A DNA stretch of 6,362 nucleotides from a bacterium (GTDB taxonomy: Bacteria > CAIWAD01). Below the pieces are notes generated by a model. The model was given only the letters and a program-made list of their open reading frames with translations, was not told the DNA's origin and made no database searches. Within the stretch, counting starts at the first letter, position 1. Every line of letters begins with the position of its first letter. The position numbers and the translations under genes are program-made. The stretch spans positions 1 through 6,362 of the forward strand of contig JAUIFJ010000066.1 in the NCBI GenBank assembly GCA_030429345.1, given 5' to 3'. Of this stretch, positions 206 through 6,362 are shown piece by piece.

Positions 206-3160
206 CTAGAATGGGACGTCGTCGTCGAACGGAATGTCCCCCTGGCTCTGGGGCGGATCGGTTCCGACTCCCTCGGCGGGCGCGGCGCTCTCGACAACTC
301 TTGTTTGTGATGCAGATGTAGTATTTGATGTTTGGCCAGAAGCATCACCGGCATCTTCCGGCTCTTCCCCGCCCACGCGAATCAATGCTTCTCGAACTGT
401 TTCTGCCTTCAAGTACAAAGTCTGGTAGCGTTTCGCACCCAACCGTCTTCTGCGTATACCTTCCTCACTGATTACGTTTACCTTTCGAAGCGCAGAAGTC
501 AACTTGTGGCTCGTAATCTTCGAATCGGAAGGCCATTGTCCTGCATCTACAAGCTCATCGTGTACTACATCTCTGATCTTGGCAGTCTGATATTCGTGTG
601 GATGCTGAAGCTCCTCCAACCCTTCGCGACTGTCACCCTCCAGGATGTTCAGCAATGTCTGCAGGATCAGAATGTCCATGTCCGTGCGACGGTTCTTTTC
701 TTCCTCGTCCTTCCGCTTCTGCAGCTGTGTTTGCCGCAGTCGCTGCACAATGGATTGTGGGTCATCCGCGCACTCCAGATCGATCAGTCGGGCAATGGTG
801 AACAGGGGCAGCCAGGTCTCACGTTCGCGGCCCGTCAGGTCCGGAAACTCCACTTCCGGGTCACTGGTCATGGTGTTTCTGAGGTGGGCGAACCTGGTCA
901 GCGCCCAGCAATGCAGCTTGTTCCGCAGCTTGCGTGTACGAATGTCCAGCTCGGTACTGGTTTTCGCCCAATCCAGAAAGTTGCGCGCTCCATCCCTGTC
1001 GTACTTCAAGCAGCGAACCAGGATGCACCGGCTAGCCAGCACACGGTCGATCTCTTTTGTACCGCCCAGGCACTTGGGGCTGTAGGTTCTGAAGGACTGC
1101 AGCTGGTTGTCCTCCCCGCTGGCGCGCTTGACCATCCCCCCCTTCTTGTAGCTTCCATTGAGCACCAGCTTCTGAGCGAAGTACGTTGAGCCTGGTTCAG
1201 GATTCGTGAAGTTCTCCGCTTCATCATAGATCGATGTACCACGATTCGCGTGTGACTCCCTGAAAATCGCGGCCTCCGAAGTACTGTCCGACTTTGATGT
1301 GTTGAAGGCCAGAAGCTTGATCAGGTCCATGCCTGCGGACTTGCCGGATTCATGCCTGCCATGGAAGTGCAGGAACCCGATCGCATTGAAGAGCGGATAC
1401 ACGTAGGTCATCATGACCCAGACCGCTATCAGATCGTGCTGGTGCTCCTCGGGATACCAGATGTACTGTTCGAACAAATGCCTGATATCCCGAAACAGGT
1501 CCCGTGTGCTGGGTGTGCAGGATGCAGGATCATTGAGGAACCGGGCAAGCGAAAATTCTTCTGCCGGTTCCTTGCTCCAGTTGGGCAGGATGCGTTCAGG
1601 AAAGTTCAGACACTTCGGATCGCCGGGGTCTCGATCGTGATACAGGATGATCTTCGAACTGGGCTTTCCCTCAAGAATTCTGCTTTCAATCAAGCAGGGC
1701 ATCTCTCCTGCGATTTCATCATTGGATTCGTGCTCAAGCCACACTCCGATGTGCCCTACGGGCTCAGGGCCAGTGAAATCAAAATCCAGTGCTGGACTGA
1801 AAGACTTCTTGTCCCGAAAGACAAACTTCAGGCTCTCTGCAGAAGTGCCCTCCGCTTTGTCCTGTGATCCGCCCTTTTGAGCATCCTTGTGAACGCGCAC
1901 AGCTTCCTGCATGTCTTTGCGCAATTCGGAGACTGGGCAATCCAGCTTGGTGCGCAGACGCTTCAACCACTGCGCCTGTTCGACACCGGTTTCTGCTGCA
2001 AGCCGCAAAAGCAGCTGATTCAGCAGTTCCTTGTGATCACGGGTCAGCCGCTCACCCGCCTGCACATCGGGCAGCTGGTCGATCATGTACTCCAGCAGGG
2101 GCGGAGCTTGGTCGACCAGGGCCTGGAACTCCTCGGCCGTGTGGCCGGCGCGCGCCCAGTCGTTGATGTCATTGGCGTCCGGGATGTGCAGGATGCGCAC
2201 TTCCCCGTCCTGCATCTCGGACTGGATGGCCTGGGCGGTCTTCAACACGTTCTTCCGGCCCGCCTCGTCGTTGTCCCACACGAGGGTCAGGGTCTCGATC
2301 CGCTTGAATTTCTTGGCATGCTTGACGGCATGGACGCCCAGGTTCCCGACGGCCGGGATTCCCCAGTCCATGAGGGTCCAGCAGTCGGGGACGCCTTCGG
2401 TGAGCACAACTTCCCGGTGATATAGGTCGTCCTCGTTGTACAGGCCTGCAGGACCCGGCAGGTGGATGTACTTGGCTCGCTGATCCGGATCCAGGGAGCG
2501 AAAGGTCATGCCAACAACGCGCTGGCGGCGCATCAGGGGTATGGAGACCCGCGTGTCGTAGAACAGTCGCCTCCACTCGCCCTCGTCATTCAGCCGGCGC
2601 AGGCCCAACTCGTTGTACTCCTCGGGCTCGTAGCCCGCCAGTCCCGGATGCTTGGGCCGGATGTCATACAGCTTGCGGATCTCAACCAGACCCAGCAGAT
2701 GCTGGCGCTGGAAGTCCCGGCCAAAGCCCCGCTTTTCCAGGTAGGCGCGTGCGCCTTGCGCTGCTTCCGTCTCCCCCTGCAGCCATCCGGCACACGCACG
2801 GGCCACGGTGGTCAGGATGTCCTCCCGGCGGCGCCAGGTCTCCAGTTCCTGGCGTTCTTCCTCCGTCGGGGGTTTCACTTCGAGGCCCAGCATCTGGGCC
2901 CCGATCTCCACGGCGGCACGGAAGTCCACCTTTCGCTCGGTCATCAGGTAGTCGAGCACGCTGCCAGCGGATTGGCCGCCAGGGTGGGACCAGCAGATCC
3001 AGCTGTTGGTCTCGCGGTAGATGGTGAAGCTGGGACCCGTGTCCTCATGGTCAGGCAGTGGACAGCAGATGCTGCGCTTCCCTGCCGCCTCCTTGGGTAG
3101 CAGGGACTCGATGGGCAGGTCCCGCTTGATTCGCTCGATCAGGTCGCTGTAGTACGCCAT
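206..3160 (-). CDS. Phage-type DNA primase-helicase: zinc finger, TOPRIM primase, DUF3631-like ATPase, SSB-like tail
   Basis: A 984-residue bifunctional replication protein (residue numbers are hand-counted, +/-1). The N terminus is a DnaG-type zinc finger: Cys33, His38 (CPLPDH), Cys56 and His59 (CWSH), with His in place of the usual fourth Cys. The primase core carries TOPRIM motifs TEGVPD (Glu254), WDNDEAG (Asp295, Asp297) and IPDANDIND (327-333), which coordinate metal for primer synthesis. Residues about 350-450 form a linker. The C-terminal ATPase has Walker A GRHESGKS (600-607), Walker B SIYDEAENF (642-650), a YSPKCLGG sensor-like segment (692-699) and a likely arginine finger in LASRCILVR (707-715). 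This order matches DUF3631-like ATPases of mobile elements rather than DnaB. A winged-helix-like region (about 857-925) follows. Residues 931-984 are disordered, ending GDIPFDDDVPF like an SSB tip. ATG at 3160 fits the DnaG N terminus, though its Shine-Dalgarno is weak. The 9-base gap after the helicase gene suggests coupling. Helicase activity of the ATPase half is inferred from the family. Confidence 0.92.
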   Translation of the reverse strand: MAYYSDLIERIKRDLPIESLLPKEAAGKRSICCPLPDHEDTGPSFTIYRETNSWICWSHPGGQSAGSVLDYLMTERKVDFRAAVEIGAQMLGLEVKPPTEEERQELETWRRREDILTTVARACAGWLQGETEAAQGARAYLEKRGFGRDFQRQHLLGLVEIRKLYDIRPKHPGLAGYEPEEYNELGLRRLNDEGEWRRLFYDTRVSIPLMRRQRVVGMTFRSLDPDQRAKYIHLPGPAGLYNEDDLYHREVVLTEGVPDCWTLMDWGIPAVGNLGVHAVKHAKKFKRIETLTLVWDNDEAGRKNVLKTAQAIQSEMQDGEVRILHIPDANDINDWARAGHTAEEFQALVDQAPPLLEYMIDQLPDVQAGERLTRDHKELLNQLLLRLAAETGVEQAQWLKRLRTKLDCPVSELRKDMQEAVRVHKDAQKGGSQDKAEGTSAESLKFVFRDKKSFSPALDFDFTGPEPVGHIGVWLEHESNDEIAGEMPCLIESRILEGKPSSKIILYHDRDPGDPKCLNFPERILPNWSKEPAEEFSLARFLNDPASCTPSTRDLFRDIRHLFEQYIWYPEEHQHDLIAVWVMMTYVYPLFNAIGFLHFHGRHESGKSAGMDLIKLLAFNTSKSDSTSEAAIFRESHANRGTSIYDEAENFTNPEPGSTYFAQKLVLNGSYKKGGMVKRASGEDNQLQSFRTYSPKCLGGTKEIDRVLASRCILVRCLKYDRDGARNFLDWAKTSTELDIRTRKLRNKLHCWALTRFAHLRNTMTSDPEVEFPDLTGRERETWLPLFTIARLIDLECADDPQSIVQRLRQTQLQKRKDEEEKNRRTDMDILILQTLLNILEGDSREGLEELQHPHEYQTAKIRDVVHDELVDAGQWPSDSKITSHKLTSALRKVNVISEEGIRRRRLGAKRYQTLYLKAETVREALIRVGGEEPEDAGDASGQTSNTTSASQTRVVESAAPAEGVGTDPPQSQGDIPFDDDVPF
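209..241 (-). other. Codons for an SSB-like acidic C-terminal tip on the primase
   Basis: These 11 codons encode GDIPFDDDVPF just before the TAG stop. The last six residues, DDDVPF, differ from the E. coli SSB tip (DDDIPF) only by Val for Ile, and the Phe carries the free carboxylate as in SSB. The preceding four residues, DIPF, look like a second, partial copy. The upstream 40 or so residues are rich in Ser, Thr, Gln, Gly and Ala, like an SSB linker. Confidence 0.8.
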
Positions 3161-3169
3161 GGTGGCTTT

Positions 3170-3715
3170 CTATTTCAGGGCCATCTGGAACAGGTCGGTA
3201 TCACGGGCGGCCAGAACGGCGGCCGCGGCGTCGAACTGGTGCTCGGAGCGTGCTTTCGTCCGGTCCCACTGGGCTTCCTTCCAGGGGCGTCCTTTACGCG
3301 AAGCCCCTGCCTTCACCACATCCGCCAGGTGGGCCTTGGTGGCCAGGAGGCTGCCTCCCACACGCTGCTTCACCTCCCCAGGCAAAAGCCACACCGTCGG
3401 CACTTCGTGAAAGACCTTGGCTGCACAGGCCAGGGCCTTGGCGTAGGCCAGGCCTTTCAGGGCGTCCGCGCTCTGCGCGCCGGAAGACGGGGTCTCGCAG
3501 CAGATGACGGCCGGTGGAAAGCGGGTGAGAAACGAGTGCAGCCCTGCCAGCAGCAGCTCCAACCGGCGTGTGTCATCGTCTGAGACCCGAAGACCCAGCT
3601 TCTTGTCCGACTTGGCCGTCACGATGGTCTGGATTCCCGCCGGCCACCAGGACGAAAGTTCGATGGCCACCAGGCCGAAGTGGGTAAAACTGGGATCCAT
3701 GCCGACAGCGAAGCG
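3170..3715 (-). other. RuvC-like resolvase domain within the helicase fusion
   Basis: This is the DNA encoding residues about 515-695 of the fusion protein. The domain is about 180 residues, the usual size of a free-standing RuvC resolvase, and its acidic motifs come in the RuvC order: strand-1 Asp521, mid-domain Glu588 and C-terminal Glu672/Asp676 with His673 between them. The stop codon follows 10 residues after the last helix, so nothing is appended. The compact layout, without a zinc ribbon or inserted lobes, argues against a TnpB/Cas12-type RuvC. Confidence 0.82.
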
Positions 3716-5257
3716 TGTGGTGCCCGCCACCTGCGGGCCAAGCCGCGGGGGTTTGAGAATCGGAGCGCCAGTATCGATGTTCAGCTGCGCGCGGGACGCC
3801 ACGGGCTCACCCTTGACGATCTCCGCCCGCAGCTTGTGATACGCTTTCTTCCGCTGATTGTACTGGCGCACCAGCGGCTTGCTGTCCCCGCCCACGTGGA
3901 CCACACCGCTGTCCACGAAATCGAAGACCTCGCCCCGCTCCTTGCCCGGACAGGCGCGCATCACGCGGCCCACACGCTGCTCGACCCGGCTCTCGCTCTT
4001 GGCCGGGAAGGTGAGCAGCAGGGTGTTCAGCTCGGGGATGTTGAGCCCCTCGTCGGCCACGGTGCTGGCGAAGAGCACGCGAACCGCCCCGGCGCGCACG
4101 CTCTTCCGGATCAGCCGCCGGGTGTCCTTCTTGACCTTCCCCACCAGCAGCTCGCCCTGGATTCCGCGTTCAGCAGCGGCCTCGTAGAGCGGCACCAAGT
4201 GATCCTCCACGCGGCCGGAAAGCACGAGGATCACGCGGTCCGGGTCGTCGTACAGCTGGGCCAGCAGGTCCAGGATCTGCCTGTTGCGCGCGGCGCTCCC
4301 GGCCAGCGCGTCAGCCAGAGCCTGCCAGTCGGCTGCCCCGCCGTAGGGGAAGGTGAAGGCCGTGTGGATCTCATGGATCCGCGCCGGCACCAGGTAGCCC
4401 TGGTCCAGCAGCGCCCGCTGATCCGTCTCGTGGATCACGGGCCCAAAAGTGTCAGTCAGCTTCTGGGTCAGGCCGTCCGCCCGCTCGGGCGTGGCCGTCA
4501 GGGCCAGGCGATACTTGGCGGGGCACAGGCCGATGATCCGGTCAAACGTCGTGGCCGGCGCGTGATGCCCTTCATCCAGGATCATGCAGCCGAATCGATA
4601 AAAGAACGATCTCAATTCATCACTGCTCTTACGTGAAAGAGTCTGCACGGTCCCCAGAGCAATTGGATTCTCGAAGCTAACCGGTGAGACAACCAATTCA
4701 CCGGATTTGGCACGTGAAGAAACAGTGCCTGCCTCGATCCCCAACATTTCTTCAACAGCTTCCCGCCACTGGTCCAACAGATCGATTGTGTGGACAAGAA
4801 TCAGGGTCGGTTGGCCAATCTGCGCGACGGCCGCCAAGGCGGTGAAAGTCTTGCCGCCGCCGGCGGGGATGACTACCACACCCTGGACACGGTCGACCAT
4901 GGCGCTGCAGGCCTTCTGCTGATAGGGCCGGAGCGCCCAGCCCCCGGCCTTGAAGGCCACACGATCGTGTGACATGCGCAGGTCGCGCACGCCCGGCCAG
5001 GGATGGATAGATCGCTTGAGCAGCTCGATGGCCCCGCGGGGCACCGTGAGTTCGGTCCGGTCTTCCGTCCAGCCTTCCAGCCTGGGCGGAATCTGTACCC
5101 ACTTCCCGTCCACCTTCTTCATCGGCCGCTGCTTCCCCCGCCGCTTGGCCCCCAGGTACTCGGGGTTGGGGTAGCTCAGGTTCTTCTGAATCTGCTTGCG
5201 GGCCAGGGCGCTTAGCAGGCGACTGGGCACACGGATCACGGAATCGACGGTGATCAT
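3170..5257 (-). CDS. SF2 helicase (XPB/ComFA/UvsW-like) fused to a C-terminal RuvC-like nuclease domain
   Basis: This is a single uninterrupted frame of 695 residues. The helicase part has a Q-like motif LRPYQQKA (109-116), Walker A PAGGGKT (131-137), motif Ia LILVHTIDLLDQW (152-164), a DEGH box (228-231), motif III TATP (254-257), motif IV VILVLSGR (342-349), motif V with STVADEGLNIPE (398-409) and motif VI QRVGRVMR (427-434). The set is complete, so ATPase activity is expected. Residues 1-105 are a basic N-terminal region that may bind DNA. A linker (about 450-515) leads to a RuvC-type RNase H fold: GMDPSFTHFG (519-528, Asp521), ICCETPSSGAQSADALKG (585-602, Glu588), a WLLPGEVK segment (623-630) as in phage RuvC proteins, and EHQFDAAAA (672-680, Glu672, His673 and Asp676). 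RuvC enzymes cut Holliday junctions, so the chain may unwind or migrate branched DNA and resolve it. Helicase assignment is near certain; the RuvC domain is strong by motif order and spacing; joint action is inference. Confidence 0.93.
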   Translation of the reverse strand: MITVDSVIRVPSRLLSALARKQIQKNLSYPNPEYLGAKRRGKQRPMKKVDGKWVQIPPRLEGWTEDRTELTVPRGAIELLKRSIHPWPGVRDLRMSHDRVAFKAGGWALRPYQQKACSAMVDRVQGVVVIPAGGGKTFTALAAVAQIGQPTLILVHTIDLLDQWREAVEEMLGIEAGTVSSRAKSGELVVSPVSFENPIALGTVQTLSRKSSDELRSFFYRFGCMILDEGHHAPATTFDRIIGLCPAKYRLALTATPERADGLTQKLTDTFGPVIHETDQRALLDQGYLVPARIHEIHTAFTFPYGGAADWQALADALAGSAARNRQILDLLAQLYDDPDRVILVLSGRVEDHLVPLYEAAAERGIQGELLVGKVKKDTRRLIRKSVRAGAVRVLFASTVADEGLNIPELNTLLLTFPAKSESRVEQRVGRVMRACPGKERGEVFDFVDSGVVHVGGDSKPLVRQYNQRKKAYHKLRAEIVKGEPVASRAQLNIDTGAPILKPPRLGPQVAGTTRFAVGMDPSFTHFGLVAIELSSWWPAGIQTIVTAKSDKKLGLRVSDDDTRRLELLLAGLHSFLTRFPPAVICCETPSSGAQSADALKGLAYAKALACAAKVFHEVPTVWLLPGEVKQRVGGSLLATKAHLADVVKAGASRKGRPWKEAQWDRTKARSEHQFDAAAAVLAARDTDLFQMALK

Positions 5258-5261
5258 GGGT

Positions 5262-5266
5262 TCCTC
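5262..5266 (-). promoter_or_regulatory. Shine-Dalgarno site for the helicase-RuvC gene
   Basis: GAGGA lies 4 bases before the ATG at 5257-5255 and overlaps the TGA stop (5267-5265) of the upstream DinG-like gene. It decides the start: the frame is open a further 36 codons upstream, but that extension overlaps the DinG-like gene, is Ser/Pro/Thr low-complexity and has no homology-like features. Confidence 0.75.
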
Positions 5267-6362
5267 AGGAAAAGGGGTCGTCGTCGTCGGACAGGAAGGA
5301 CTGGATGGCCTGGATTTCGGTGGACAGCATGCCGCCCGGAATGGATTTGAGGAACTGCTGGCCATAGCGCTTGGTCTTCACGCGCCCGTCCATCAGCAGC
5401 ATGACGCCGCGATCTGTATCACGGCGGATCAGCCGCCCGAAGATCTGCTTGAAGGTGATCAGGGAAAGCGGCAGGCTGTGGCGGAAGAACCAGCCCTTGG
5501 GATCGTGCTCCGCGATCCAGTCCATGACCGGGTCCGCAGGCGAGGGAAAGGGCAGGCGATCCAGGGCCACCAGCGAAAGTGCTTCGCCCGGGACATCGAT
5601 GCCCTGGAAAAAGGTCCGTGTGGCGAACAGGACGCTCGACACGTCCTCTTTGAATCGCTGGATCAGCACTGTGCTGGGCGCGCTGCCCTGACGGAAGCAC
5701 CGGTATCCAAGACGGTCAAACTCGAGTTCCAGTGCGTTCCAAGCTTCCTGCATCGCCGCGTTGGATGTGAAGAGCAGGAGGCTCCGGCCACCAGCGGCAG
5801 GCACTGCTTGGCTCAAGGTGTCGATCATCCGGTCCCGGAAGTCTTCTGCATTAGGCTCCGGCAGCTGGTCGGGCACAACGACCAGGGCGCTGGATCGGAA
5901 GTCGAAGGGGCTGGGAAGGATCAGCTGGCGAGTCCGGCCTTCCGGCAGGCCCAACCGATCGCGGATGAAGCTGAAGTCGTTTCGTGTCGTAGTCAACGTG
6001 GCGCTCGTGCCCACGAAGGCCTGCAGCTGGGGAAACAGGTTGGCCGCCAGGTGCTTGGCCACCGACACCGGTTTGCCACACAGCTTGCCCAGCGTGGGCC
6101 CCGCCTTCGGCGCCCAGGTCTCCACCCAGTACACCCACTCGGGATCCTCCTGGTCGACCAGGAACTTGATCTTCCGGCAGGCTTCGCGGCACTGGGCCTC
6201 CCGACGTTCCAGCTGCTTGTACCGCTTGCCCTCCGGATCCTCCCCCTTCTTCACAGACTGCAGCTCTCGTCGCGCCTGGTCCACGCACATCAGCAGCTCC
6301 GACGGATCAGCGCAGCCCGGGCGCGTGATCCGCACCCGGTTGGTCTCGCGGAAGCGCGCGGC
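5265..6362 (-). CDS. DinG/XPD-like ATP-dependent DNA helicase, C-terminal part (5'-truncated by window edge)
   Basis: The reading frame is open to the right edge (first visible residues AARFRETNRV), so the N-terminal half, with Walker A, DEAH box and any iron-sulphur cysteines, lies outside. Counting from the in-frame GTG at 6335, the visible part shows the second RecA-like domain of the DinG/XPD family. Motif III is GTSATL (about 109-114), motif IV has LLLFTS (186-191), motif V is ATRTFFQGIDVPG (238-250, matching the family F(W/F).G.D.PG), and motif VI is QIFGRLIRR followed by D.G...L.DGR (297-318). Family members are 5'-3' helicases that unwind forks, D-loops and R-loops. Before motif III lies a charged, probably helical stretch (about 20-60). 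The protein ends in an acidic tail, SDDDDPFS, resembling an SSB tip except for the final Ser. The TGA stop lies 7 bases before the next start and overlaps its ribosome binding site, so coupling is likely. The phage context is inferred; a host-type DinG is possible, but the neighbours argue against it. Confidence 0.92.
   Translation of the reverse strand, partial: AARFRETNRVRITRPGCADPSELLMCVDQARRELQSVKKGEDPEGKRYKQLERREAQCREACRKIKFLVDQEDPEWVYWVETWAPKAGPTLGKLCGKPVSVAKHLAANLFPQLQAFVGTSATLTTTRNDFSFIRDRLGLPEGRTRQLILPSPFDFRSSALVVVPDQLPEPNAEDFRDRMIDTLSQAVPAAGGRSLLLFTSNAAMQEAWNALELEFDRLGYRCFRQGSAPSTVLIQRFKEDVSSVLFATRTFFQGIDVPGEALSLVALDRLPFPSPADPVMDWIAEHDPKGWFFRHSLPLSLITFKQIFGRLIRRDTDRGVMLLMDGRVKTKRYGQQFLKSIPGGMLSTEIQAIQSFLSDDDDPFS

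Follow-up and report, generated by a model that had tools for sequence, protein, structure and literature searches.

An SF2 helicase and a RuvC-like resolvase domain joined in one chain

The RuvABC resolvasome pairs branch migration with resolution by RuvC, and it does so with three separate proteins, the motor being the AAA+ protein RuvB acting with RuvA. The locus described here raises the question whether such a pairing can be built into a single polypeptide, with a motor of superfamily SF2 in place of RuvAB. The window, the whole stretch of DNA analyzed (6,362 bases), is a complete contig (C2) of a genome of 4.2 Mb in 92 contigs (G000). Three genes lie close together on its minus strand, encoding part of a DinG-type helicase, the fusion and a primase; no match to RuvA or RuvB was found in these three genes.

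Gene layout and the helicase half

The frame of the fusion gene (5257..3170, minus strand) is open for 695 codons, for which the chance probability at the base composition of the window is about 4e-10, and the gene (3170..5257) thus encodes a protein of 695 amino acids. An alternative upstream start, the ATG at 5365, would give 731 amino acids; 5257 is the better start because CCTGAGGAACCCATG has a GAGGA ribosome-binding site just upstream (5262..5266, minus strand) that overlaps the stop codon of the preceding gene. That gene (5265..6362, minus strand), 7 bases away and cut by the contig end, codes for the C-terminal part of a DinG/YoaA-type helicase, of which a full-length relative of 659 amino acids is found on contig C100 of a genome from another genus, G001 (L041:3925-5901). 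On the downstream side, 9 bases away, lies the gene of a DnaG-like primase of 984 amino acids (206..3160, minus strand) with a zinc ribbon, a DnaG core, a Toprim domain and a long C-terminal part. The gaps of 7 and 9 bases and the GAGGA overlapping the DinG stop codon suggest that the DinG helicase, the fusion and the primase form one operon.

The initial annotation had proposed the one-chain fusion from short motifs, all of which are indeed present in one frame: PAGGGKT (motif I, residues 131-137), DEGH (motif II, 228-231), TATP (motif III, 254-257) and QRVGR (motif VI, 427-431) in the helicase core, and GMDPS (519-523), CCETP (586-590) and EHQFDA (672-677) in the RuvC part. Sequence, profile, conservation and fold evidence agree with this proposal.

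The helicase core (residues 106-470; 3848..4942, minus strand) is matched by Pfam ResIII and Helicase_C and, over residues 109-462, by phrog_16 (DNA helicase; E 8e-72); among solved structures XPB/Rad25 is best (E 3e-27) and T4 UvsW is also found (E 6e-11). The Walker A motif, the DEAH-like motif II, motif III, the motif VI arginines and two RecA-like domains place it with the UvsW/D10/XPB members of SF2. The match of the helicase part to the Hef model is weak (E 9e-13), far below the Hef cut-off. The basic N-terminal region (residues 1-105; 4943..5257, minus strand; computed pI 11) is common to free-standing helicase relatives; because a free-standing helicase of 454 amino acids from an Alicyclobacillus plasmid can be aligned with residues 2 to 477 of the fusion (34%), these 105 residues belong to the helicase family.

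The top phage match is a helicase from phage Summit, whose annotation notes similarity to a T5 helicase, presumably D10. Experiments have shown that T5 D10 drives branch migration at three- and four-way junctions, an activity that UvsW shares, and the authors group D10 with UvsW and XPB (PMC5180179). By its sequence the helicase half is an XPB/UvsW-type SF2 motor, for which ATP-driven branch migration, demonstrated for these relatives, is predicted (PMC5180179). T4 UvsW and T5 D10, along with archaeal and eukaryotic XPB, resemble the fusion in the SF2 core and the motif set, and the phage enzymes also in the replication setting; they are closer than RuvAB and RecG, with which the motor had initially been compared. 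Unlike the fusion, the free-standing UvsW-type relatives examined have about 450-560 amino acids and lack a RuvC part.

The RuvC half

The resolvase domain (residues 515-695; 3173..3715, minus strand) is preceded by a variable linker (residues 484-514; 3716..3808, minus strand) that is poorly conserved among the copies described below, with both flanking domains conserved. Taken by themselves, the last 212 residues match phrog_159 (RuvC-like Holliday junction resolvase) with E 5e-19, and the copies from the other genus do so with E 1e-19 and 1e-20. All six copies also match Pfam RuvC, the domain of the window scoring below the cut-off (18.4 bits versus 22.2). On these profile matches we class the domain as RuvC-like via PHROG 159 and not as a canonical RuvC. 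A profile built from the six copies finds E. coli RuvC (1hjr) with E 9e-6, and free-standing phage RuvC-like proteins are 27-30% identical over nearly the whole domain.

The fold predicted for residues 515-695 is RNase H-like, as a RuvC assignment demands, with RuvC as the best match. An AF2 model of the domain, folded with phage RuvC-like relatives, reached a pLDDT of 77 and a pTM of 0.78, and its 12 best matches in Foldseek were RuvC chains. In VIA-align the eight best were bacterial RuvC structures (Z 17.7-19.4), Holliday-junction complexes among them, and the next rows stood at 14.3 and below, with phage RuvC and chloroplast MOC1 at about 14, poxvirus resolvases at 12-13 and YqgF at about 10. 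Single-sequence AF2 of the full-length fusion gave a pLDDT of 36 and is uninformative on the relative placement of the two domains.

In the profile alignment E588, K630 and K641 of the fusion take the places of E66, K107 and K118 in E. coli RuvC, and D521, E588, K630, K641, H673 and D676 are invariant in every copy covering them. Of the complete acidic motif set claimed in the initial annotation the motifs themselves stand; the last one reads H673-x-x-D676, so that the metal site consists of D/E/H/D and is not purely acidic. The domain thus resembles cellular and phage RuvC (PHROG 159) in its RNase H-like fold, its D/E/(H or D)/D site, its two lysines and its length (about 160-190 amino acids). 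It differs from RuvC, which is free-standing, in being the C-terminal domain on a motor, in its score below the Pfam cut-off and in lacking the wedge aromatic. F69 is the junction wedge of E. coli RuvC; the profile alignment puts S591 at this position, and given this replacement the junction specificity may differ from that of E. coli RuvC.

The lost wedge residue and the weak similarity to canonical RuvC would also suit a general branch- or flap-cutting RNase H-like enzyme, mainly engaged in debranching before packaging or in D-loop or R-loop processing. We regard this as improbable, since true RuvC ranks far above the other RNase H-like nucleases in the fold matches, the catalytic lysines (K107 and K118 of E. 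coli RuvC) are retained and the profile matches are to resolvase families. The domain identities of both halves are close to certain, and junction cleavage by the fusion is likely.

Copies, selection and prophage setting

Full-length fused copies were found on five separate contigs, three in G000 (C2, which is the window, C63 and C76) and two in G001 (C100 and C58). The three G000 copies are 92-93% identical, and the G001 copies are 63-64% identical to that of the window. Further pieces of a fusion in G001, on C22 and C23, are probably one copy split by assembly. The search for other proteins of the same two-domain layout, suggested along with the initial annotation, thus yielded copies in the same genome and in a second genus, and none of the five full-length copies has an internal stop or frameshift, be it between the two parts or elsewhere. 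Both halves are under purifying selection, pairwise dN/dS values staying well below 1 (for the RuvC part about 0.05-0.36 in all pairs, for the helicase core 0.06-0.41); of all regions the linker varies most from copy to copy. In-frame starts are present just ahead of the RuvC part, and inspection of the copies' sequences by eye revealed no conserved ribosome-binding site before them.

A contig of only 6,362 bases with similar copies elsewhere in the genome is a setting able to yield misassembly, and one could think of an assembly artefact or a pseudogene that has joined two genes. Five fused copies and one split copy in two genera, the lack of stops and the purifying selection rule this out, and its probability is negligible.

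The order DinG helicase, fusion, primase is found in G000 on C63 and C76 and in G001 on C100, where a DNA methyltransferase gene sits between DinG and the fusion; on C58 of G001 the fusion directly adjoins DinG. Both G001 copies are followed, further downstream, by a phrog_1499 gene (weak SbcC-like match). On C100 an integrase gene is about 6 kb away from the fusion on one side, and exonuclease, terminase, portal and head genes follow on the other, the span being about 47 kb. Because integrase, terminase, portal and head genes flank it within this distance, the C100 copy is part of a tailed-phage prophage. The window contig carries no virion gene, and prophage status is established for the C100 copy only.

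Helicase-nuclease combinations are common in defence, and weak NCBIfam matches to defence helicases were obtained here. A host or defence helicase-nuclease instead of a phage replication protein is nevertheless very improbable in view of the replication gene neighbours, of phrog_16 and phrog_159 as the best phage families and of the one copy that resides in a prophage with integrase, terminase and portal. Since the host has its own ruvC (a chromosomal gene was found in five of five genomes of the host phylum), the need of a phage for a resolvase of its own is not obvious.

Several side observations concern the same loci. The DinG/fusion boundary (window position about 5267; L039:884-1655; L041:2693-3925) is an insertion site, which in C76 of G000 holds 772 bases with two small frames that have no Pfam match and in C100 of G001 the gene of an N6/N4 DNA methyltransferase. 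Within the helicase, about 190 bases of the window (4592-4780; residues about 160-222, between motifs I and II) are 51-75% identical to two sister copies in 150-base steps, compared with 93-97% in the flanks, an apparent allele swap within the helicase domain. Compared with the window, the primase gene of C76 (window 213-2160; L039:3742-6714) carries a diverged allele in its C-terminal two thirds, with mostly 43-63% identity in 150-base steps, the N-terminal part being 93-99% identical and the bases past the 3' end of the gene 95% or more; this is domain-level mosaicism. Next to portal and terminase, L050:3474-7967 encodes a protein of 1,498 amino acids matched by head-morphogenesis families only at residues of about 100-330; for the long C-terminal part there was no best-stretch match.

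Distribution, known systems and proposed function

Among 386 genomes the profile of the RuvC half found the fusion only in G000 and G001, and in two further phyla (40 + 398 = 438 genomes, sets without a positive control) it had no match. By tblastn 2,252 phage records and 1,092 plasmid records were matched, none of them covering 80% of the fusion protein. Searches of viral and genome contigs with the protein or with alignments revealed no fusion; the matches that were confirmed are to helicases and to one cellular ruvC. More distant relatives of the helicase whose frames are longer showed, by eye, no RuvC motif in their tails, the frame viewed at several of the loci not being the helicase frame. 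Across the 386 genomes phrog_159 matched frames of 158-423 amino acids among the matches listed. For the RuvC half alone the phage matches were limited to six Klebsiella phage records, and in one annotated record examined the gene is free-standing.

A protein of Klebsiella phage ST13-OXA48phi12.3 annotated as 'hypothetical protein' (L064:5980-6546) matches phrog_159 with E 4e-57 and is a RuvC-like protein that stands alone; viral contigs supplied 37 relatives. A third genome of the family, G003 (L046:8028-9323, L009), has the same type of helicase at about 37-38% identity, in frames of 462-501 amino acids, without a fused RuvC.

In the other phages and bacteria examined, as judged from their sequences, motor and RuvC cutter are separate proteins. 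Phage Summit has a RuvC-like gene at a distance of about 3 kb from its helicase gene, and in Bacillus phage vB_BboS-125 (gp40/gp41) a Holliday junction resolvase gene adjoins and overlaps a UvsW-like helicase gene; in contrast to the fusion these are two genes in the opposite order, and the resolvase is of the phrog_843 family. The nearness of separate helicase and resolvase genes in these two phages fits a functional link between the activities. The same layout on one polypeptide is known from archaeal Hef, in which an N-terminal SF2 helicase and a C-terminal structure-specific nuclease act on branched DNA (PMC7776575). The nuclease of Hef belongs to the XPF family, however, whereas the C-terminal domain of the fusion is RuvC-like and not of the XPF type. 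The fusion most likely represents two known families newly joined, analogous to Hef with an unrelated nuclease. The literature covered by our search yielded no description of a helicase-RuvC fusion, although one may exist elsewhere; together with the searches of sequence collections this is consistent with the earlier statement that the architecture was not known as a described system.

We propose that the fusion is quite probably a self-contained branch-migration and resolution enzyme for intermediates of phage replication and recombination. The N-terminal UvsW/D10-type helicase would bind four-way or fork-like junctions and drive branch migration with ATP, and the C-terminal RuvC-type domain, held on a flexible linker, would cut the junction by two-metal catalysis. 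RuvC enzymes work as dimers. Two chains of the fusion paired in this way would therefore bring two motors to a single junction and stand in, in compact form, for a RuvAB motor and a RuvC nuclease made separately. To the phage it would be of service in replication- and recombination-dependent growth and in clearing branches before packaging. We infer the enzymatic activities, the dimerization, the coupling of motor and nuclease in cis and the role in packaging. Only tentatively do we go further and envisage a Holliday junction resolvasome that is single-chain and coupled to ATP: in a dimer of it, the two SF2 motors would move the junction and pass it on to their own RuvC active sites. Such an arrangement would have originated in temperate phages of a single, little-sampled lineage of bacteria.

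The two domains might instead be fused for co-expression only and act independently, the one as a UvsW-like remodeller of forks and R-loops and the other as an ordinary resolvase. The linker sequence is variable, and each half occurs elsewhere as a separate gene; in vB_BboS-125 the gene of the UvsW-like helicase overlaps that of a resolvase from another family. That the fusion has been kept in all full-length copies from two genera at about 63% identity, and that a partial survey of 18 further proteins of the C100 prophage against PHROGs revealed no other resolvase, makes such independence rather unlikely. The natural occurrence of both activities on one chain suggests that a phage RuvC can have a UvsW-type motor as its functional partner, and it offers a simple two-domain protein in which the coupling between motor and nuclease can be studied directly.
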